DNA of 64,000 nucleotides, taken from the NCBI GenBank assembly GCA_016795105.1, contig JAEUIH010000012.1, forward strand, positions 1-64,000, read 5' to 3'. The stretch comes from Planctomyces sp. GTDB lineage: Bacteria; Planctomycetota; Planctomycetia; Planctomycetales; Planctomycetaceae. The notes below the pieces were generated by a model that did not search any database, was not told the origin of the DNA, and saw only the letters and a program-made list of their open reading frames with translations. Both the position numbers and the translations under genes were made by a program. Each line of letters begins with the position of its first letter. Within the stretch, counting starts at the first letter, position 1. Shown in pieces: positions 8,058 through 56,885 of the stretch.

Positions 8058-8352
8058 GCGCGATTGGTAACCACGAACCTCACGAACCACACGAAACAAC
8101 ACAATCGGGTACTTGTGCGATTCTTCCGTCTATTCCGCGTCTTCCGTGGTCAAAAAGCCAGCCCTGTCTGCGACTTGAATTCAAAGCCACAAAATCTGTC
8201 TTGGAGTCTTCTCAATTGGCAAGAGAATGAGGGCAAAAGAATGCCGGACTCTCTCATTCTCCTGCCCCCATTCTTCTGCGATTTCCCGAACTCTTGATCC
8301 CCTGCGATTCTTTCGCGTGGTTCGTGTCTTTCGTGGTTGAATTACCAACGAC
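8058..8352. repeat. MITE-like element with imperfect inverted ends
   Basis: The left end (TTGGTAACCACGAACC and onward, from about 8063) and the right end near 8309-8350 (reverse complement TTGGTAATTCAACCACGA) form imperfect terminal inverted repeats rich in CCACGAA words. A direct duplication of GATTGGTAACCACGAA occurs at 8025-8040 and 8062-8077. No supported gene lies between 7955 and 8378. The size, non-coding interior and inverted ends suggest a small non-autonomous mobile element, but target-site duplication was not established. Confidence 0.45.
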
Positions 8353-41294: not shown

Positions 41295-42638
41295 ATGCTT
41301 CAGGCACTTCGTCGTCAAAGTTCGGAATCTCGCCGACAATTCATCGAATCCCTTGCCAGAATGGCGTTTGGAGTCGCGATTGTCCCAGGTACCAGTTTCT
41401 TCAGTCGTATTCCTGCTGCCGCGTCGGAACCGACCCTGACGGCCTCTGCGGCTGCCGGATCTGCCGCACTCGGTGTTGCAGCCGCCGGGACAGCTGATCA
41501 CGCGATCTATATTTTCCTAAGCGGTGCGATGAGCCACATCGACACGTTTGATCCTAAACCTGGACAGGCGTCGGGAGGCGATACAAAGGCGATCCAGACA
41601 TCAGTACCGGGTGTCTCGATCGGCCATCATCTCCCGCTGATGGCAAAGCAGTTTCAGGATTTGGCCGTAATTCGTTCGATGACAACAGAGACTGGCGCTC
41701 ACGAAGAGGGCGTATATCTGATGCGAACGAGCTACAAGGAGATTGGTTCGATCCGGCATCCGTTTCTTGGAGCCTGGATGACTCATGTCCACGGAAAACT
41801 GAACAAAAATCTTCCGGGCAGCGTGATTGCAGGAAATGCGAATCGACATCCCGGACAGGGCTATCTTCCGGCAGATGTTGCCCCGGCACCTGTGGGAGAC
41901 CCGAAGGCCGGGCTTCAAAACACCAAACCACCAAAGTACCTTGATGACAAGAACTTTCAGGTACGTCAGCGACTTATGGGACGGTTTGAATCCGCCTTCA
42001 AAGCAAAGTACCCCCTGACCGAAGTTGAGGCGTACTCTGACTACTACCGGGAAGCTGTGCGGTTATTGAAGAGTCCGGACCTGGAAGCATTTGACATCAA
42101 TAAAGAAGACCAGAAGGTTCGCGACGCCTACGGGGCTCATCGAGCAGGGCAGGGGCTGTTGCTGGCGCGCCGACTGATTGAAAAGAAGGTCCGCTTTGTT
42201 GAAGTAGAAATCGGTGGATGGGACAACCACAATGACATTTACTCCGAGAACAACCTCGTTCGCAACGCCGCACAGCTCGACCAGGCCGTAACCACACTGC
42301 TTCAGGACCTCAAACAACGAGGTTTGCTGCAGAAGACTCTGATTATCCTTGCAACGGAGTTCGGCCGTACACCACAAATCAATCAAAATGCCGGTCGCGA
42401 CCATCATCCCGCCGCATTTTCCTGCGTCCTTGCCGGGGCAGGCATTCGAGGCGGTCAGGTGATTGGAGCCACAGACACTGAAGGACGTACAGTTGCGGAT
42501 TCCCCGTGGTTACCGCGAGACTTCAACGCAACGATCGCTGCGGCATGCGGACTGCCCATTGAAAAAGAGTTTACATCTCCGTCGGGACGCCCATTCCGAA
42601 TTGCAGAAAGCGGAAAGCCTATTCCGGGACTTCTGTAA
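41295..42638 (+). CDS. DUF1501 family protein
   Basis: A 447-residue exported protein paired with the upstream DUF1549/DUF1553 gene. The N-terminus has ESRRQFIESLARMAFGVAIV, a Tat-like leader, then an Ala-rich region (AAAGSAALGVAAAG). FLSGAMSHIDTFDPKPGQ and the EFGRTPQINQNAGRDHHPAAF block match the family; the latter carries candidate metal-binding Asp and His residues. Its last 20 bases overlap the 3' end of the convergent DUF4159 gene, so the two transcripts are antisense to one another at their ends. Confidence 0.92.
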   Translation: MLQALRRQSSESRRQFIESLARMAFGVAIVPGTSFFSRIPAAASEPTLTASAAAGSAALGVAAAGTADHAIYIFLSGAMSHIDTFDPKPGQASGGDTKAIQTSVPGVSIGHHLPLMAKQFQDLAVIRSMTTETGAHEEGVYLMRTSYKEIGSIRHPFLGAWMTHVHGKLNKNLPGSVIAGNANRHPGQGYLPADVAPAPVGDPKAGLQNTKPPKYLDDKNFQVRQRLMGRFESAFKAKYPLTEVEAYSDYYREAVRLLKSPDLEAFDINKEDQKVRDAYGAHRAGQGLLLARRLIEKKVRFVEVEIGGWDNHNDIYSENNLVRNAAQLDQAVTTLLQDLKQRGLLQKTLIILATEFGRTPQINQNAGRDHHPAAFSCVLAGAGIRGGQVIGATDTEGRTVADSPWLPRDFNATIAAACGLPIEKEFTSPSGRPFRIAESGKPIPGLL

Positions 42639-45129
42639 TCATGTTTCTCCAGCGAATATCCTGAAGCATGGAATAGAGGATCACGTTTACGGCAATCTTT
42701 GCAGCGTCTTCCTCTAGATAACCATCACAGGCAAGCGATGCCTGATGTTCAAGCGCACAACTGATGTCAAAGCGGCTATAGATAATCGCCATTCGTCCAT
42801 CCACTTCAACCCCTTCCAGTAAGGGCTTTCCGGTCTCTTTGACAACTTTAAGGCTTGAACTCTGAGCCCCTGTCGTGACTCGACGTCGAGTTGCCTGTGG
42901 AATAGCGTGACCGATGCGTTCCGAGAAAATTTCATGTTCTGCGGGAATCTCGGTCAATTCCTGATCCGGATAAATCTGCTTGACAAGGACTCGGAAGTCC
43001 CGATCAAAACTTGTCGAACCACAACAGGCATCTGCAAACAGGACTCCTCCTCGATTCAGATAATCCCGAAGAGCATCCACCTGAGCTTTCTGAAGTGCAA
43101 ACCGATTTCGACCATGCATATAGACAATCGGAAACCGGGAAAGTTCGTCAAGCGTCACAGGTATCGCGTAGCTGCGAGTTGACGCTGCCACACCCACTGT
43201 TTCATTAAGCGCGGTCAGCAGATTTCCAAGTGCTCGAGGCGCGGTATCCCAGCCGCCGTTATGCCTGAGCTTTCCGATCTGCAATAGTCCGCGTTCGATC
43301 GAATCCGCATTGTTTTTTCGCGCCACCATGGCTTCGTTGAGTTTTTCCGGTGGTTCACGGTTTGTCGCATATGCAATCACATTGATTCCAATCTGCGTGC
43401 TCCTCAGGATTCTCTGTTTCAGGTCAAGCGATCGATTGGGAGGATCGTGACGTTTCCATTTCTGCCAAAGACAGGCAATATCCTCGGGGCAGTACATGAT
43501 GGATGTGCGGCAACCAAAATCGACTCCCCAAATCTCGGTACTGTCCGCGTTCAGCAGGTATTCGCTCCGAAATACCGGGTGATCACTTTTCAGCCGCTGG
43601 AGAGACGCTTCCCCCTCAGGGAACATCTTCCTGATGATTGCTCTGAAGCCCTGATCGAAGTTCTTGCCATCGCAGTTGGCCACGGCAAATATGAAACCAC
43701 CATCATCCACATAGTCTCGCAGCCAGCCAATGTGCTCATCCGTCAATTGGGGAGCATCTCGACCTGACAGAAACAAAACAGGCGACTGATTCAGATCCAG
43801 AACAGCGGTTTCAGGACGCAGGCGGCTGAGTGTCACGACCTGGCTGGTGAGCCGAGGTGCCCAGCCGGGAAGTGTATCGATCAGGTCTACCAGGCTAATG
43901 ACGTCCATCGGATGCCGATTCCATTCTCCCTGGTCATTTGTCTGACCGTTCGGAGAATTGTAATCCAGCTTGTTGACTACAACTCGCGACAGTCCCTTTG
44001 ACAGGAACATCAGGGCCATTGCTGTATTCAGACTTGCATCTCGCTCCGGCGTGTTTCGTGAAAGCCATTTTCCGGAACCTTCCTGTTCCGAGACAAAGAA
44101 GCGTGCACCCTGGCGATACCAGTCCTTTTGTCCAAAGAACCGAACATTGCTCATACGCCCAGCACGTTCCACACCATAGAGATAGTAGTAGTGCCAGTTT
44201 CCGGTGGATTCTCTGGGATTTGCCAGCACCGTGAACTCCCGCCCCATCCATGCGAGTCCTTTTTGCATGACAGTGTCCGGTTCTGGTGGTCGGCAACAGT
44301 CGGGGCGTCCCTGAGCGTCGACATCACCGTCGTCTTCCAGCATTCTTCGAGTAATGGCGATCGTCGAAAGCCCTGCCGAGGTCATACTGCCGGTCGAACT
44401 ATTATCATCGTTCGGCTTGTAGCCCCAGCCACCATCGGGATTCTGTCCCTGCACCCAGTGGTCGTGTGTGCGTTTCCATGTTGTCTGAGAAACTTCCACA
44501 CCCGCGTAGGCAGCTTCGCGGAGTGCCAGAGCGGCAAATTGCCCGTTGCTTCGATCCGGCGAATTTCGCCCGGCAAGTCCCTTGATATCGTACCCCCACA
44601 AACCACTGCTGTAGCCACTAACTTCCTGAGTCTCTTCCAGCCTTTGTGCCAGCAGTCGCAGTTGAGGCAGATCTTTGTCGTACTGCTCCGCAGCTGCAAG
44701 TGCCATGATGACCAGTGATGTTTCATAGACAGATGTGGGTGATCGGGGCGGAAGATTTCGCAGGTAATTCAGTCCATTCTGCACGGATGGCGAATTTACA
44801 TCCACATCACAATTAATGAGTGCCATGACAGAAAATGCCGTCAGCCCAATCGTCCAGTCATCAAGCCCCACACGGTCCGTGCGTTTCCAGGAACCATTTG
44901 GTTCCTGGGATCTCTGAAGAGACTGAACACCGTCTTCAATTGCGCGCTTGACCTCATCCCGGAGTTCGATATCCGTCATTTCCGGTTGCTGTGCAATCGC
45001 GGCCGTATTCACGAAACAGAACTTGATTAGCACGACACAAACGACAAGTGTCTGTAAACGCCAGAGCCCGAACCAGGGCACTTCCCTTCGGGCTGCAGGC
45101 AGGAGAGTCATATTGTGGCGATCCTTCAT
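42619..45129 (-). CDS. Exported protein with terpene-cyclase-like repeats and two DUF4159 domains
   Basis: An 836-residue protein with a hydrophobic leader (LQTLVVCVVLIKFCFVNTAA). Residues about 55-390 contain prenyltransferase/squalene-cyclase-like alpha-toroid repeats (GSWKRTDRVGLDDWTIG, DGGWGYKPNDDNSS). Two DUF4159 domains follow, near 440-630 and 640-830: each has a fold with LFLSGRDAP or IVYMHGRNRF and a conserved GG(F/V)(I/L)FA(V/D)A strand. DUF4159 proteins are membrane-associated and poorly understood; the architecture suggests carbohydrate or ligand binding rather than catalysis. Its ATG overlaps the stop of the upstream zinc-ribbon gene in an ATGA junction. Confidence 0.85.
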   Translation of the reverse strand: MKDRHNMTLLPAARREVPWFGLWRLQTLVVCVVLIKFCFVNTAAIAQQPEMTDIELRDEVKRAIEDGVQSLQRSQEPNGSWKRTDRVGLDDWTIGLTAFSVMALINCDVDVNSPSVQNGLNYLRNLPPRSPTSVYETSLVIMALAAAEQYDKDLPQLRLLAQRLEETQEVSGYSSGLWGYDIKGLAGRNSPDRSNGQFAALALREAAYAGVEVSQTTWKRTHDHWVQGQNPDGGWGYKPNDDNSSTGSMTSAGLSTIAITRRMLEDDGDVDAQGRPDCCRPPEPDTVMQKGLAWMGREFTVLANPRESTGNWHYYYLYGVERAGRMSNVRFFGQKDWYRQGARFFVSEQEGSGKWLSRNTPERDASLNTAMALMFLSKGLSRVVVNKLDYNSPNGQTNDQGEWNRHPMDVISLVDLIDTLPGWAPRLTSQVVTLSRLRPETAVLDLNQSPVLFLSGRDAPQLTDEHIGWLRDYVDDGGFIFAVANCDGKNFDQGFRAIIRKMFPEGEASLQRLKSDHPVFRSEYLLNADSTEIWGVDFGCRTSIMYCPEDIACLWQKWKRHDPPNRSLDLKQRILRSTQIGINVIAYATNREPPEKLNEAMVARKNNADSIERGLLQIGKLRHNGGWDTAPRALGNLLTALNETVGVAASTRSYAIPVTLDELSRFPIVYMHGRNRFALQKAQVDALRDYLNRGGVLFADACCGSTSFDRDFRVLVKQIYPDQELTEIPAEHEIFSERIGHAIPQATRRRVTTGAQSSSLKVVKETGKPLLEGVEVDGRMAIIYSRFDISCALEHQASLACDGYLEEDAAKIAVNVILYSMLQDIRWRNMITEVPE

Positions 45130-50706: not shown

Positions 50707-50740
50707 AAAAGCACCTCGAAGTGACTTCGAGGTGCTTTTT
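50707..50740 (-). terminator. Strong intrinsic terminator after the YTV-repeat gene
   Basis: A 16-bp perfect inverted repeat, AAAAGCACCTCGAAGT / ACTTCGAGGTGCTTTT, around a single base. It lies about 70 bases past the stop codon of the minus-strand YTV gene. On the minus strand the exit side is TTTTCTGTTTTCC. It would also work on + because TTTTT follows there. Confidence 0.9.
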
Positions 50741-50808: not shown

Positions 50809-52305
50809 TTAGTGGCCACAACCACAAGCTGGAGCTGCTGAAGCACAGCCGCCGCATGCTGGAGCTGATGCACAGCCACCGCAAGCTGGAGCTGGTGCTG
50901 AAGCACAACCGCCACAAGCTGGCTTGTAAACCTGCTGTGAAACGACCTGCTCAACCATCTTGCAAACCTGAACTTCAACTTCCTTCTGTTCCTGCTTGCA
51001 GACAGTGACGTGGTAGGTGTAAGGCTGCTCTTCAGAAACCTGCTTTGCAACCTTCACGGTGCAGGTACGAACTTCGTCCTTGCAGCTCGTGACATGGTAT
51101 GTGTAAGCCTGCTCTTCAGAAACCTGCTTTGCAACCTTTACGGTGCAGGTGCGAACTTCCGGCTTGCAGACAGTCACGTTGTACGTGTAAGCCTGCTGCT
51201 CAGTCACGTGCTTGCAAACCTTGACTGTTCGGGTACGAACTTCTGGCTTGCAGACGGTGACGTTGTAGGTGTAAGGCTGAGCTTCTGTAACCTGCTTGCA
51301 GACCTTAACGGTTCGCTGACGAGCTTCCGGCTTGCAGACGGTAACGTTGTACTTGTACTCTTCCTGAGCAGACTGAGTTTCGTAGCAGGTGTATTCAACT
51401 TCCTTCTGAACGACGTTTGGTACCCAGACCTTGCAGGTCTGAGTGCAGCCACCGCAGCTGGAAGCAACAGCACCGCAGGCGCTTGCAACGCCGCAGCCAC
51501 CGCATGCACTTGCACATGCTGAAACACAACCACCGCATGAGTGAGCTGACTGGCAGCCACCACATGAAGATGTTGCACAGCCACCGCAAGCTGACTCAAC
51601 AGCTCGCTCTTCCCAATGACCCTGATCTTCGCAAACGGTTCGAGTCTTTGTGACTGGGACTCGGTGACAAACAGTGCGAGTTCCGGTTCGCTCTTCTGTG
51701 TGAGGAACCATCACAGTGTAATCCTGTGTCTGATCTTCCCAGACAGTCTTGCAAACGTTACGAACGCCTTCCTTGGTTTCCGTGTGGGGAACCATCACAG
51801 TGTATTCCTGTGTCTGATCTTCCCAAACAGTCTTGCAAACGTCGCGAACGCCTTCCTTGGTTTCTGTGTGAGGAACCATGACAGTGTATTCCTTGGTCTG
51901 GTCTTCCCAAACGGTCTTGCAAACCGTTCGAGTGCCCTGACGCTCTTCCGTCACAGGAACCTTCACTGTGTATTCTTTGGTCTGATCTTCCCAAACAGTC
52001 TTGCAAACCGTTCGAGTGCCCTGACGCTCTTCAGTGACAGGAACATTGACAGTCACCATTCGCTTTTCGGTGACGTAGGTTGGGACGAGAACGGTTCGTT
52101 CTACAGTTTCCCATGTACCACAGGCAGCGGTAGTTCCGCAAGATCCTGCTGTACCACACCCTGAATCGCATGAGCTGGCACCGCATGGGCTGCAGCTGGA
52201 TGCACATGGTGCAGAACAACAAGAACTTACCTTGCTGCCCCAGCAGCCGGCTTGGGCAGATACCGTCATTGCGACGGCGGCTGCCAGTGACAAAAACAAA
52301 CGCAT
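50809..52305 (-). CDS. YTV-repeat, cysteine-rich planctomycete envelope protein
   Basis: Secreted structural protein of the YTV family described from Rhodopirellula, associated with the proteinaceous planctomycete cell wall. From ATG 52305 (GGAGGAG nine bases upstream) it has 498 residues; the longer frame to 52368 is leader. The signal peptide ends VSAQA. After a Cys/Gly/Ser-rich segment come about four units of 28 residues (YTVMVPHTETKEGVRDVC and variants with VWEDQT). A second CGGC-rich linker leads to five further 28-residue units beginning Y-x-YNVTVCKPE, and a Cys-rich tail ends ACGCGH. Regular Cys pairs suggest disulphide cross-linking into a wall polymer. Strong terminator downstream, no operon partner. 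Confidence 0.92.
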   Translation of the reverse strand: MRLFLSLAAAVAMTVSAQAGCWGSKVSSCCSAPCASSCSPCGASSCDSGCGTAGSCGTTAACGTWETVERTVLVPTYVTEKRMVTVNVPVTEERQGTRTVCKTVWEDQTKEYTVKVPVTEERQGTRTVCKTVWEDQTKEYTVMVPHTETKEGVRDVCKTVWEDQTQEYTVMVPHTETKEGVRNVCKTVWEDQTQDYTVMVPHTEERTGTRTVCHRVPVTKTRTVCEDQGHWEERAVESACGGCATSSCGGCQSAHSCGGCVSACASACGGCGVASACGAVASSCGGCTQTCKVWVPNVVQKEVEYTCYETQSAQEEYKYNVTVCKPEARQRTVKVCKQVTEAQPYTYNVTVCKPEVRTRTVKVCKHVTEQQAYTYNVTVCKPEVRTCTVKVAKQVSEEQAYTYHVTSCKDEVRTCTVKVAKQVSEEQPYTYHVTVCKQEQKEVEVQVCKMVEQVVSQQVYKPACGGCASAPAPACGGCASAPACGGCASAAPACGCGH

Positions 52306-52832
52306 GAGTAACAACTCCTCCAAAGTCTTCCAGGGCCAAACAAAAACACGAAGATCCAAGCCCGACACGCCTCAGGCTATTCCTTGAGAATCATCCGACA
52401 AGCCCCCCAGGTCAAACGCCATCAGTGTATTACACGCATTTAACCCAAACAACCTATTATGCGCACGCTGCGTGGCTATTCGTCCATTTTCAAAAACAAA
52501 TCATGGATAAAATGGATGCTCTCAGCAGACGTTGCTTTTTGTAAACACTGGCGCAAATACGTTGATTGGGGGAAAATTTCCGATTACGCATAGCATGAAT
52601 GCAGATGCACAGCAAAAAAAGGATTCGATGGGGGTATACCCGCTTTTTCCTAAAAATATCGTTCCGGTTTTCCGATACGCGGGCGGACGTTTGCCGAAGG
52701 TACAAAGGCCTCCCGGCAAGTTGCCTGAAATCCATCCACAGCTCCGTCCGCGGTTTGTGGATTCACCCGTGTTTCTGTACACTCTGGCGGTTTGCGACGC
52801 CGGTGTTTCAGCGTTTCAGAGGTTCCATCCCA
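52306..52832. other. Divergent leader between YTV gene and lipid locus
   Basis: A 527-bp region that must hold the YTV promoter on the minus strand and the promoter of the dehydratase gene on +. It is locally AT-rich between 52430 and 52640. The frame upstream of the dehydratase start is open to 52599, but its translation is Arg/Cys-rich and unlike the family. No clear hairpin or operator was found. Confidence 0.4.
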
Positions 52833-53309
52833 ATGAAGTTTTGCCTTGTTGATCGAATTGTCGAGCTTGTTCCTGGAACCAGCATCCGAACTCTCAAAAA
52901 TGTGTCTTTGGCCGAAGAGTATCTCCAGGACCATTTTCCCGGGTTTTCGGTACTGCCAGGGGTGATGATGGTGGAAGCCATGGTTCAGTCCTGCGCGTGG
53001 CTGACTCGGGTCACCGACGATTTTCAGCATAGCGTGATATTGTTGAAGCAGGCTCGAGCCGTGAAGTTCAACAGTTTTCTGAAGCCCGGACAGACACTCG
53101 ATGTAACCGCCACACTGAAAAAGCAGAACGGCGATGAAGTTGAGTTTCAGGCCGCAGGTACGGTGAATGGTGAGTCAGCTGTCAGTGCCAAACTGACACT
53201 TTCGAGAACTAATCTGGCATCCGTGAATCCGGGACTGGTTGAGAACGACCGTCGAGTGATTGCATCGATGCGGGAGCTTTATCATCAAATTTGCTGCCTG
53301 AATCCATGA
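52833..53309 (+). CDS. FabZ/FabA-like 3-hydroxyacyl-ACP dehydratase (first copy)
   Basis: Predicted hot-dog-fold dehydratase that removes water from 3-hydroxyacyl-ACP, 158 residues from ATG 52833, with AGAGG ten bases upstream. DHFPGFSVLPGVMMVEAM carries the catalytic His34 and Glu48 at canonical spacing. The PGV following is intact. It opens a + strand cluster with FabG, an ACP, a second dehydratase and FabF. The second dehydratase shares KNVSLAEE and DHFPGF at the same positions, so they are paralogues. Confidence 0.9.
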   Translation: MKFCLVDRIVELVPGTSIRTLKNVSLAEEYLQDHFPGFSVLPGVMMVEAMVQSCAWLTRVTDDFQHSVILLKQARAVKFNSFLKPGQTLDVTATLKKQNGDEVEFQAAGTVNGESAVSAKLTLSRTNLASVNPGLVENDRRVIASMRELYHQICCLNP

Positions 53310-53415
53310 AGCAGTGCCGGGACAAATTCAGGTTTGCAGGGCATCGAGGATATTCGATCAGCAGTCAGTGTTTACGCATATTTTCAGTAATTTCAGGTTC
53401 AGAACGGGGAATTTC

Positions 53416-54171
53416 ATGACAGTTCAGGGGCGAATCGCGCTGGTGACTGGTGGCAGTCGGGGCATTGGGCGAGCGATTGTGGAGACATTGGCAGCAAACG
53501 GTGCAAAAGTCGCCTTTGTTTATAATTCCAACTCAGCAGCAGCAGAAGCCGTGGTCGCGGAACTTCAAGCGAAGGGCCAGGAAGTCTGGGCAATTCAGGC
53601 GGATGTACGATCGAAAACAGCAGCGGACGAAGTGGTCGCCGCAGTCGTCGAGAAGTGGGGCAAACTGGAAATTCTGGTGAACAATGCTGGAATTATTCGC
53701 GACGGGCTCCTCGCCACGATGGATGCTCAGCAATGGCAGGACGTCATCGACACGAACCTGACGAGCGTGTTCAATTTCTGTCAGGCTGTTTCCCGTCAGA
53801 TGATGTCTCAGCGATACGGCCGCATTATTAATATGTCGAGTGTTGCAGCGGATGTGTCAAATCCGGGACAAGCCAACTACGCGGCATCGAAAGGTGGAGT
53901 GGAAGGATTTACGCGTTGCATCGCCACCGAACTTGCTCGCCGAAATATCACTGCCAACGCGGTTGCGCCTGGATTTATTGAGACCGACATGACGGAAGCG
54001 GTCGTCAATGCTGCTGGAGCTGAGATCAAGAAAAAGATTCCGGTCCGGAGACTGGGCCTGCCGTCCGATATTTCCAATGCGGTGCTGTTCTTTGCAGCAG
54101 ATGAATCTTCCTATGTTACAGGACAGATTCTGAAAGTTGACGGCGGATTGACACTGGGTGGATTGGGCTAA
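53416..54171 (+). CDS. fabG: FabG-like 3-oxoacyl-ACP reductase
   Basis: NADPH-dependent short-chain dehydrogenase that reduces 3-oxoacyl-ACP, 251 residues from ATG 53416, with GGGGA six bases upstream. The cofactor motif is TGGSRGIGRA, NNAG is present, and the catalytic residues are Ser142, Tyr155 and Lys159 (YAASK). PGFIETDMT and the C-terminal GQILKVDGG are FabG-type. It lies 106 bases after the first dehydratase. Given its neighbours it is more likely a lipid-locus reductase than a general alcohol dehydrogenase. Confidence 0.92.
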   Translation: MTVQGRIALVTGGSRGIGRAIVETLAANGAKVAFVYNSNSAAAEAVVAELQAKGQEVWAIQADVRSKTAADEVVAAVVEKWGKLEILVNNAGIIRDGLLATMDAQQWQDVIDTNLTSVFNFCQAVSRQMMSQRYGRIINMSSVAADVSNPGQANYAASKGGVEGFTRCIATELARRNITANAVAPGFIETDMTEAVVNAAGAEIKKKIPVRRLGLPSDISNAVLFFAADESSYVTGQILKVDGGLTLGGLG

Positions 54172-54480
54172 TCGGACGGCGCAACGCCTGCGTTCTCAGG
54201 TTTAAGACCGAAAAACGTGGGAAGAAAGGCAATTCCAGAGGACTCACGGTTCGATTTCCTCATTTTTTGGGGAGTCGACCGGGAAGCCGATAGAGTGCTG
54301 GACGTTTCCCGCCGGTTTCATCAGAATATTGCTTGTCAGCCATCCGTGAGGAACTGGGTCCGAGCGGTGTGGCAAAACATGGGTTGCTGGTTCAGGCCTG
54401 GTCGCCTGTCTGAAACAGCGAGCTGAAATCTGGCGACTGCTGGTCCGGTGCTTCTGCAGTGGATCTGGGAGAAATTGTGA
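54172..54480. other. Gap inside the lipid locus, no gene assigned
   Basis: A 309-bp gap separates FabG from the carrier protein. One short + frame (54217-54426) has no family resemblance. I see no hairpin or promoter that I would defend, although the gap is unusually long for a cotranscribed locus. Confidence 0.35.
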
Positions 54481-54867
54481 ATGCCTTCATCTGAAGAGAT
54501 TTTTCAAAAGGTCCAGGGAACTCTGTTTGATGCGCTGGGAGTTGACGAAGACGAAGTAACTCCAACTGCGACACTGATTGGTGACCTTGGTGCGGAATCG
54601 ATTGACTTTCTGGACATCGTTTTCCGGCTCGAAAAGAACTTTGACATCAAGATTCCTCGCGGAGAGCTGTTCCCTGAGAACATCGCCTCCTCTGATTCGG
54701 GATTCGTCGTTGATGGCAAAGTCACGCCAGAAGGCATTGCTCAGCTGCGAGAAAAAATGCCGCATGCCGACATTGATTCATTCGCAAAAGACCCACAGGT
54801 CAGTCGAATTCAGGATTTGTTCACGGTCGATATGATCTGTAAATTCATCAGTGCACGAGTACGCTGA
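54481..54867 (+). CDS. Acyl carrier protein, unusually long
   Basis: Carrier that holds acyl chains on a phosphopantetheine arm. The attachment Ser40 lies in LGAESIDFLDIVFRLEK, where the family's DSL is ESI. The helical core (VDEDEVTPTATLIGDLGAES, NFDIKIPRGELFPEN) is clear. At 128 residues it exceeds the usual ~78; the extra ~45 residues after the core include SDSGFVVDGKVTPEGIAQLR, then a helical end. GGGAG lies upstream of the ATG. It lies between the FabG and second-dehydratase genes. It may be specialised rather than the housekeeping AcpP. Confidence 0.88.
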   Translation: MPSSEEIFQKVQGTLFDALGVDEDEVTPTATLIGDLGAESIDFLDIVFRLEKNFDIKIPRGELFPENIASSDSGFVVDGKVTPEGIAQLREKMPHADIDSFAKDPQVSRIQDLFTVDMICKFISARVR

Positions 54868-54917
54868 TCGACTGGATGTTCTGCAGCGACCGTTGTGTGT
54901 TCTGCTGCAATCTGATG

Positions 54918-54950
54918 CATCTCCGCGGGCTTTTTCGGTCCGCGGAGATG
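54918..54950 (+). repeat. Hairpin between the carrier-protein and second dehydratase genes
   Basis: An 11-bp perfect stem CATCTCCGCGG / CCGCGGAGATG with an 11-nt loop that contains TTTTT. The T tract is in the loop, not after the stem, and the sequence after is ATTTCATA. It lies 50 bases past the ACP stop and 68 bases before the next start, so it may be an attenuator, an RNA stability element or a weak terminator. Confidence 0.6.
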
Positions 54951-55017
54951 ATTTCATATAGGGTACTCGGCAGACCACCTTTTCCCATTTCTGCTCCTGG
55001 ACATTGGGTCTCTTGCC

Positions 55018-55521
55018 ATGCGCTGGTACTGGGTTGACAAGTTCATTGAATTCGAAAGTGGTCACCGAGCCCGTTCCGTAAAGAACGTTTCGCTGGCTGA
55101 AGAACACCTGCACGATCATTTTCCCGGGTTCCCTGTGATGCCCGCGTCGCTGATGATCGAAGGGATGGCTCAGACAGGTGGAATTCTGCTGGGCGAAAAA
55201 TACGAGTTTCAGTACAACGTGATTCTCGCCAAAGTCCCCAAAGTGACGTTTCACAGCTGGGCCTGTCCGGGAGATCAGCTGATCTATACGGCATTGCTGG
55301 AAAATGCCGGCAAGGAAGGTGGCAGCGTCAGCGTCACTGCCACCGTCGGTGATCGACTCGTCGCTGAAGCGGAAATTGTCTTCGCACATTTGACCTCTGA
55401 AGACCCTCAGCTCAGTCGAATTGATCAGAAGAATTTCGTGTTTCGTATGAACCTGCTCGATATTCTGACAGTTGGTAAAGCAGGCTCCGGTGCTGCCGAT
55501 TCAGATGCGGGAAGCAACTGA
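55018..55521 (+). CDS. FabZ/FabA-like 3-hydroxyacyl-ACP dehydratase (second copy)
   Basis: Hot-dog-fold dehydratase of 167 residues. DHFPGFPVMPASLMIEGM carries His34 and Glu48 at the same positions as the copy at 52833, but the usual PGV is PAS. That change sits beside the active-site tunnel and could alter chain-length or double-bond preference. KVPKVTFHSWACPGDQL is the second conserved strand. The C-terminus after 140 is extended. Shine-Dalgarno is weak (GGGTCTC). It lies 150 bases after the carrier protein and 74 before FabF. Confidence 0.88.
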   Translation: MRWYWVDKFIEFESGHRARSVKNVSLAEEHLHDHFPGFPVMPASLMIEGMAQTGGILLGEKYEFQYNVILAKVPKVTFHSWACPGDQLIYTALLENAGKEGGSVSVTATVGDRLVAEAEIVFAHLTSEDPQLSRIDQKNFVFRMNLLDILTVGKAGSGAADSDAGSN

Positions 55522-55595
55522 ATTTACGCAGTTGATGAGTTCAGATCGATAATTCGGTGGATACCGGGGTGAGAAGAACTGTTTGGAGTGTTTTC

Positions 55596-56885
55596 ATGAG
55601 ACGGCGGGTTGTTGTAACGGGGATTGGTTGTATTACACCAATCGGAAATGACGTCAATTCCATGTGGGCAGCGTTGCAGGAAGGCCGCAACGGAGTGGGG
55701 TTAATCACTCATTTTGATGCATCACGTTTCCCCACAAAATTTGCAGCCGAAGTGCGTGGATTTGAATTTGATTCGCTGGTCGATGATCCCGCCCGATTTA
55801 CAGACGCCGGGCGAAATATTCGGTTTGCGATTGGTGCAGCGAAACAGGCGGTGTCGGACTCCGGTATTCAGGACAGCAGGGGACTCAATCCGGCACGATT
55901 CGGCGTCTACCTGGGTGCAGGCGAAGGACAGCAGGACTTTCAACAGTTCATGACTCTGGTTGCCAACTCTCAGCGGGACGGATCGAGCGTCGATCTGGAA
56001 CAATTCACTCGCGAATTCCTGATTTCAATGAATCCTCGCTTTGAGCTGGAACTGGAACCGAACATGCCAGCCGCTCATTTGTCGAGTCTTTTTAATGCAC
56101 AGGGACCAAATCTCAACTGTCTGACAGCCTGTGCAGCATCCAGTCAGGCGATTGGCGAAGCGGCCGAGATCATTCGTAGAAATGACGCGGACGTGATGTT
56201 GTCCGGCGGTGCGCACAGCATGATCCATCCATTCGGAGTCACTGGATTTAACCTCTTAACCGCACTCTCAGAACGCAACGATTCTCCAAAAACGGCCTCT
56301 CGACCGTTTGACCTGAATCGCGACGGTTTTGTCCTGGGAGAAGGCGCTGGAATGCTGATCCTCGAAGAACTTGAGCACGCGAAGGCTCGGGGTGCAAAAA
56401 TCTATGGAGAAATCCGCGGATACGGGTCCACGGCTGATGCCTACCGGATAACCGACATTCACCCTGAGGGACGTGGCGCCATTAGCTGCATTAAGATGGC
56501 TCTGGAAGATGCAGCGATTAATGCGGAAGAAATCGGTTATGTCAATGCGCACGGGACCAGCACAAAGGTGAATGACCAGGTTGAAACGATGGCGATTAAG
56601 GGAGGGCTGGGACAGCATGCCTGGAAGACTCCTGTTTCGAGCATCAAAAGCATGATGGGGCATCTGATTGCAGCGGCCGGAAGTGTTGAAGCGATTACCT
56701 GCCTGCTGGCAATTCGAGATGGGGTACTTCCTCCAACAATTAACTACGAAACACCCGATCCTGAGTGTGATCTGGACTATATTCCAAATGTCGCCCGTCA
56801 GTCAAAAATCCGGGCGGCTTTGTCCAACAGCTTTGGATTTGGCGGTCAGAACGTGTCACTGATTGTGTCCGAATTTAAGGGTTAA
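55596..56885 (+). CDS. fabF: FabF-like 3-oxoacyl-ACP synthase (ketosynthase II)
   Basis: Condensing enzyme that extends acyl-ACP with malonyl-ACP, 429 residues from ATG 55596; TGGAG seven bases upstream. The frame is open to 55557 but the RRRVVVTGIGCITPIG N-terminus sets the start. The catalytic triad is Cys179 (NCLTACAASS), His319 (VNAHGTST) and His356 (SMMGHLIAAAGS). SNSFGFGGQN closes the thiolase fold. It completes a set of elongation, reduction and dehydration enzymes around a local carrier protein. No enoyl reductase, FabD or FabH is in the window. Confidence 0.94.
   Translation: MRRRVVVTGIGCITPIGNDVNSMWAALQEGRNGVGLITHFDASRFPTKFAAEVRGFEFDSLVDDPARFTDAGRNIRFAIGAAKQAVSDSGIQDSRGLNPARFGVYLGAGEGQQDFQQFMTLVANSQRDGSSVDLEQFTREFLISMNPRFELELEPNMPAAHLSSLFNAQGPNLNCLTACAASSQAIGEAAEIIRRNDADVMLSGGAHSMIHPFGVTGFNLLTALSERNDSPKTASRPFDLNRDGFVLGEGAGMLILEELEHAKARGAKIYGEIRGYGSTADAYRITDIHPEGRGAISCIKMALEDAAINAEEIGYVNAHGTSTKVNDQVETMAIKGGLGQHAWKTPVSSIKSMMGHLIAAAGSVEAITCLLAIRDGVLPPTINYETPDPECDLDYIPNVARQSKIRAALSNSFGFGGQNVSLIVSEFKG

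Follow-up and report, generated by a model that had tools for sequence, protein, structure and literature searches.

A planctomycete YTV protein whose two repeat arrays probably pair as the arms of one giant antiparallel beta-hairpin

The gene described here lies in a 64,000-nucleotide window of planctomycete DNA and encodes P0001, a Pfam YTV protein of a Fuerstiella-like planctomycete. We consider it very likely that P0001 is a secreted wall protein whose N-terminal and C-terminal repeat arrays form the paired arms of a single giant antiparallel beta-hairpin. The hairpin is a predicted structure; the cross-links and the function as a wall fibre are what we infer for it. The two types of repeat unit are most likely the opposed strands of this one hairpin. 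The gene and its flanking signals are as follows.

50809..52305, minus strand: YTV protein gene P0001, an open reading frame of 498 aa with a match to Pfam PF07639 (E 6e-20)
52315..52321, minus strand: GGAGGAG, probable ribosome binding site ahead of the ATG at 52305, recognised by eye
52249..52305, minus strand: probable signal peptide, aa 1-19, from a signal-like start recognised by eye
52117..52248, minus strand: N-terminal Cys-rich stretch, aa 20-63, with pLDDT <50 over most of its length
51601..52116, minus strand: predicted hairpin strand 1, aa 64-235 (DSSP E64-227 and E230-235), from AlphaFold2; contains the five N units, aa 84-223
51439..51600, minus strand: Cys-rich linker, aa 236-289, with five CGGC motifs, the putative hairpin loop; from the sequence, and free of strand in the AlphaFold2 model
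50923..51438, minus strand: predicted hairpin strand 2, aa 290-461 (DSSP E290-295 and E298-461), from AlphaFold2, charge covariation and pair counts; contains the five C units, aa 317-456
50812..50922, minus strand: C-terminal Cys-rich tail, aa 462-498, with three CGGC motifs, from the sequence
50707..50739, minus strand: terminator-like hairpin of 15 pairs with a T-rich tail, 3' of the YTV gene and between it and a DUF1501 gene

The PF07639 (YTV) profile scores 71.5 bits against P0001 (cut-off 21), and at E 0.001 the N array is the sole region that it matches. The protein is also Cys-rich, as YTV proteins are (48 of 498 residues); no NCBIfam profile scored above its family cut-off. The nearest named relative is from a Fuerstiella MAG (L045), with 75% identity by tblastn and 79% in the alignment designated A2, of which PF07639 matches 38 of the 39 members. 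Across the phylum the profile finds matches in 42 of 392 sampled genomes, 40 of the 42 being in the same class (own genome included), and in none of 14 control genomes. All relatives compared below are from planctomycetes. There are two terminator-like sites in the region against 2.7 expected by chance, a count that is not significant, although the stem at 50707-50739 is long.

As the preliminary description had claimed, P0001 carries two repeat families that share a period of 28 residues, five units in each array, and identity at lag 28 exceeds that of shuffled sequences (z 20.5 for the N region, 16.4 for the C region). With the Tyr of YTV (N) or YNV (C) as unit position 1, the V-C-K reported near positions 17-21 of both unit types is present as V17-C18-K19 in four of the five N units (the remaining one has VCH) and in three of the five C units, but two C units have VAK. 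All five C units have a Cys at position 6. The arrays were also said to be separated by CGGC-rich linkers; there is such a linker, but it is a single one, accompanied by Cys-rich ends, and counts by eye give five CGGC motifs in the linker, three in the tail and none in the N-terminal Cys-rich stretch. The antisense of the N array (positions 51635-52132 of the window, plus strand), read across ten stops, resembles the N array itself (37% identity, E 2e-11), as it does in some relatives; Thr-Val codons are their own reverse complement in one frame, which probably accounts for this likeness.

Profiles of 28 columns were built from 278 N units and 347 C units. Of 77 non-redundant relatives, 66 have a recognisable linker motif, and 65 of these supplied each set of units. 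The consensus of the N unit is YTVMVPhTETRTGTRTVCKPVpEtVTrT and that of the C unit YtVTVCKPEtRTrTVtVCkmVpEEvpYt. The two profiles match best at rotation 0 with 36.2 bits; the reversed profile scores 14.6, and the best of 20,000 column shuffles 16.8. Because the strands of a hairpin run in opposite directions, this forward similarity is not due to pairing and therefore favours descent. The suggestion that both arrays descend from one ancestral unit is thus supported by the profiles, and the predicted folds of the two unit types are not unrelated, since AlphaFold2 draws both as long strand. The unit itself likely arose as 2 x 14 residues, judging from comparisons of half-units: the N halves match each other at offset 14 (equalled in 1 of 5,000 shuffles), and a period of 14 is the leading one in some relatives, such as L032, L075, L083 and L086. 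Among the C halves, however, offset 12 gives a better match than 14 or any other, and the match between the first N half and the second C half is weak, with 19 of 5,000 shuffles as good.

AlphaFold2 was run on P0001 with 39 sequences and on a distant short relative, L102, with 20; these inputs included relatives that also enter the comparative tests below, and the two lines of evidence are thus partly shared. In the P0001 model each array is one unbroken strand of 164 residues (64-227 and 298-461), continued by 230-235 and 290-295. Every mirrored pair of strand limits sums to 525, the confidence profile is mirrored too, and the mirror register is i+j=525, which places G229 opposite P296 and W231 opposite W294 beside the linker. 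Confidence is modest (mean pLDDT 57.7, pTM 0.23), with strand parts below 50 near residues 125-142 and 386-406. For L102 the mean pLDDT is 75.4, with strand blocks mostly at 81-91, and the pTM is 0.26; its strands (E54-160 and E163-171 versus E186-194 and E197-303) have limits that all sum to 357, and the breaks at 161-162 and 195-196 are the sites of the counterparts of G229 and P296. Pairing between the N and C arrays was read in both models from the strand limits and the mirrored confidence profile, without coordinates, and on that basis the two arrays are predicted to form a single giant antiparallel hairpin, with the Cys-rich linker closing it. A beta-strand extends 0.33 nm per residue, and at that value an arm of ∼164 residues would be roughly 54 nm long.

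Residue-by-residue pairing requires arms of matched length. From 109 related proteins, reduced to 77 by k-mer overlap, we measured each arm from cap to cap (TVxVP to DxGHW in the N array, VWVPN to VQVCKMV in the C array). Regular expressions placed the caps in 42 of the 77 proteins, with a constant length relation in 31, and most of the misses looked like misplaced anchors; they were replaced by position weight matrices, which are blind to length. With the matrices, 69 of 77 proteins had all four caps above threshold, and the relation held with a constant of -4 in 61 of the 69. The eight misfits were L093, L072, L032, L080, L049, L068, L054 and L034. In L093 and L032 the first cap had been misplaced and was re-placed by hand; L072 and L049, which are cut by contig ends, and L054, which looks frameshifted, were dropped from the length counts. 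Three proteins under threshold (L040, L041 and L112) were added by hand, the automatic positions of L041 and L112 already fitting. Five caps in all were thus set by hand with the expected value known, and L093 and L112 fit the length rule when aligned on a conserved motif. Eight of the 77 proteins were dropped as fragments or frameshifted (L072, L049, L054, L017, L110, L018, L023 and L098), and the sets of 69 before and after hand placement differ in membership.

The final count is 66 of 69 orthologues that obey the rule with the same constant. There are 14 length classes (102 to 298 residues), and the linker, measured between the inner caps, ranges from 12 to 100 residues. When partners were shuffled 20,000 times, a mean of 9.3 and a maximum of 23 proteins matched. 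Each of the three misfits deviates by whole units (L068 -28, L080 -56, L034 +56), the former two being from MAGs and L034 from a single-contig genome. L034 is the clearest exception; its C array, which by eye is made of near-identical 56-residue double units, is two 28-residue units longer than its N array. Also by eye, the C array of L054 ends in an unrelated, frameshift-like short tail.

The rule extends to a second kind of YTV protein with 16-residue units. Two such paralogues are present in the same genome, C233 (L001) and C10 (L002, L124), and both obey it; in their family, lengths match in 30 of the 30 proteins placed, with a constant of -5 (a partial sequence, L148, was left unplaced). 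Twenty-six of these 30 share one length, and the informative ones are L001, L151, L153 and L150.

The direction of pairing is indicated by a two-residue insertion. Arm lengths that leave 18 mod 28 are those with the insertion: 52 of 52 such proteins show its signal on both arms, and 10 of 10 whose lengths leave 16 show it on neither. Among the other four of the 66 proteins, L111 has it on both arms, L119 on neither, and L032 and L035 on one arm only; the insertion is therefore on both arms or neither in 64 of 66, with L032 and L035 as the exceptions. Its position is mirrored in every one of the 23 proteins whose length is >=150 and whose breaks are clear on both arms, at 31-53 residues from the open end in the N arm and 26-54 in the C arm. 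Phase labels agree with this orientation, the mirror sums taking a single value mod 14 at 8,080 of 9,408 positions. We also considered a parallel arrangement of the arrays and rejected it, as the phase differences split in two (3,976 and 4,825 of 9,408) and the insertion is mirrored rather than parallel.

Tests of phase, residue parity and charge used the 61 rule-keeping proteins with automatic caps (57 in the charge permutation) and are conditional on the length rule; the permutation exchanges partners within length classes, and relatedness remains. All 1,011 Pro residues are on one face of the ribbon (516:0 by parity in the N arrays, 495:0 in the C arrays). Thr (1704:130 and 1207:91) and Cys (268:69 and 617:105) mostly share that face, and Val mostly takes the other (134:1661 and 124:1708), giving one face mainly of Val, Tyr and charged residues and another mainly of Thr, Pro and Cys. 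After removal of phase means, charges of the two arms covary negatively, with z -9.9 at i+j=525, -7.9 at 527 and -6.6 at 523; the remaining 22 registers scanned have |z| <=3.4, the largest positive values being 3.4 at 521 and 3.3 at 534. The peak is at the AlphaFold register, where there are 53 like-charged pairs against 158 expected and 472 opposite-charged pairs against 377 expected.

Beside the linker, the position of W231 and W294 (the Trp of GHW and that of VWVP) is an aromatic pair in 66 of 66 proteins (WW 61, YY 2, YW 2, WY 1), and at the position of G229 and P296 the pair is Gly with Pro in 58 of the 66, with Ser occurring there in 6 and Ala in 2. No directly opposed Cys pairs occur at register 525 against 25.2 expected (sd 4.2), and one occurs at 523 against 30.4 expected; the diagonal at 527 is not avoided (16 against 14.2). 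Directly opposed Cys are thus avoided and the disulphides are therefore probably intermolecular, linking molecules rather than closing within one. A fibre with regular disulphide spacing, as had been proposed, is consequently not supported in the form of an intramolecular ladder, but links between molecules are compatible with the counts.

The length, insertion and charge evidence would fit equally well if the N array of one molecule ran antiparallel to the C array of another, in a swapped dimer or an endless polymer with lengths matching between molecules, and the longer linkers, up to 100 residues between caps, would permit this. We regard such pairing as improbable. Where the linker is shortest, at 12 residues between caps (L065 and the fragment L072), 8 residues remain inside the Trp pair, which is enough for a tight turn, and on this sequence feature pairing within one molecule is favoured; AlphaFold gave the intramolecular form as well, though a single chain allowed it no alternative.

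Less probable still, in our view, is that the unit of 14-16 residues is the strand-turn element of a compact repeat fold, such as a beta-solenoid or a triple beta-spiral, with the long strands of AlphaFold an artefact. The periods of 14, 16 and 28, the fixed positions of Pro and Gly in them and the modest confidence for P0001 would suit such a fold. It gives no reason, however, to expect arrays of equal length, insertions in mirrored positions or charges that covary at a single mirror register, the restriction of every Pro to one parity suggests an unbroken two-residue alternation over whole arrays, and AlphaFold gives continuous strands for both P0001 and L102. The homology of the N and C units raises the further idea of two independent tandem arrays that are equal in length only by descent from one duplicated half protein. 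We find this hardly credible: on a tree built from the 94 columns of the caps, which is weakly resolved, parsimony counts 32 changes of N length and 34 of C length but 3 of their mismatch, and the two-residue insertion sits in mirrored rather than parallel positions.

In the intramolecular hairpin that we prefer, the Cys-rich linker would be the loop, and arm lengths would stay matched since any residue gained by one arm needs a partner on the opposite one. The even pairing sum of a two-stranded ribbon would put all Pro in the same kind of pair, presumably with the amide position outward, and outward Pro at both edges would hinder endless growth of a sheet. Cys residues of the arms, not being paired straight across the ribbon and having no partner inside the molecule, would be left for neighbours; along with the Cys of the loop, the tail and the N-terminal stretch, they probably serve to cross-link one ribbon to the next in an SDS-resistant wall. 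Somewhat better than an even chance, we suggest, attaches to the broader proposal that YTV wall proteins in general have the form of giant mirrored beta-hairpins, with ∼100-300 residues per arm (∼35-100 nm), in which the number of units is a molecular ruler, outward Pro guard the edges and Cys bolt the ribbons together. If true, the material of the planctomycete protein wall would be a structural fibre of a new class.

With P0001 as query, matches occur in 45 of 59 genomes, and with the C10 protein, a paralogue with 16-residue units, in 58 of 59 (own genome included in both counts), where a match may be to either kind. Upstream of the YTV gene and divergent from it (positions 52599-56885 of the window, plus strand) are genes with FabA-like, short-chain dehydrogenase, carrier-protein, FabA-like and ketoacyl-synthase domains. 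The first two genes of this set (FabA-like and short-chain dehydrogenase) adjoin the YTV gene in 12 of 79 fetched loci, uncorrected for contig ends, and a lipid pathway linked to the YTV wall protein is possible. Elsewhere in the window, an 836-aa open reading frame (42619-45129, minus strand) has, by eye, two similar internal stretches.

It has been suggested since the 1980s that the planctomycete wall is mainly protein, with YTV proteins among its main components (PMC8567305, PMC5287468), and peptidoglycan has also been reported in some planctomycete species (PMC5287468). YTV proteins are described as major constituents of SDS-boiled walls of Gemmata obscuriglobus (PMC5287468), YTV relatives scored highest in a wall preparation of Tuwongella immobilis (PMC8567305), and one YTV protein is in the essential gene set of Planctopirus limnophila (PMC10632474); these published proteins may be of either kind, with 28- or with 16-residue units. 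P0001 shares with YTV proteins the PF07639 match over the N array, the Cys-richness and a planctomycete host, and by analogy with the proteomics of these relatives its location in the wall is plausible. In contrast, the C array, its shared origin with the N array and the mirrored hairpin are absent from the passages on YTV proteins in these three papers. A literature search found no structural model of YTV proteins among the matches listed.

Among known structures, much of the Foldseek list consists of pore-forming beta-hairpins (lysenin, aerolysin, complement proteins and others), but in the best 50 of 121 matches prob is <=0.57 and TM <=0.17, and the likeness appears to be local rather than one of membership. 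The top match is a phage phi29 collar entry (E 1.7e-4, prob 0.57, TM 0.12). VIA-align gives Z <=2.4 over 47-52 residues and the best match in a sequence search of the PDB has E 0.42, and the absence of a close structure match is evidence of neither novelty nor difference. The hairpins of pore-forming proteins are much shorter than the arms of P0001. Triple beta-spiral and beta-solenoid fibres are built from short strand repeats of similar length in structural fibres; they are trimeric or coiled, and would leave the matched, mirrored arrays of P0001 unexplained. The hairpin offers a concrete, testable structural model for a bacterial wall of protein and, for long beta fibres with a fixed length, a design taken from nature. 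Two arrays far apart in one chain that have kept in step, residue for residue, through ∼30 inferred length changes would be unusual as well.
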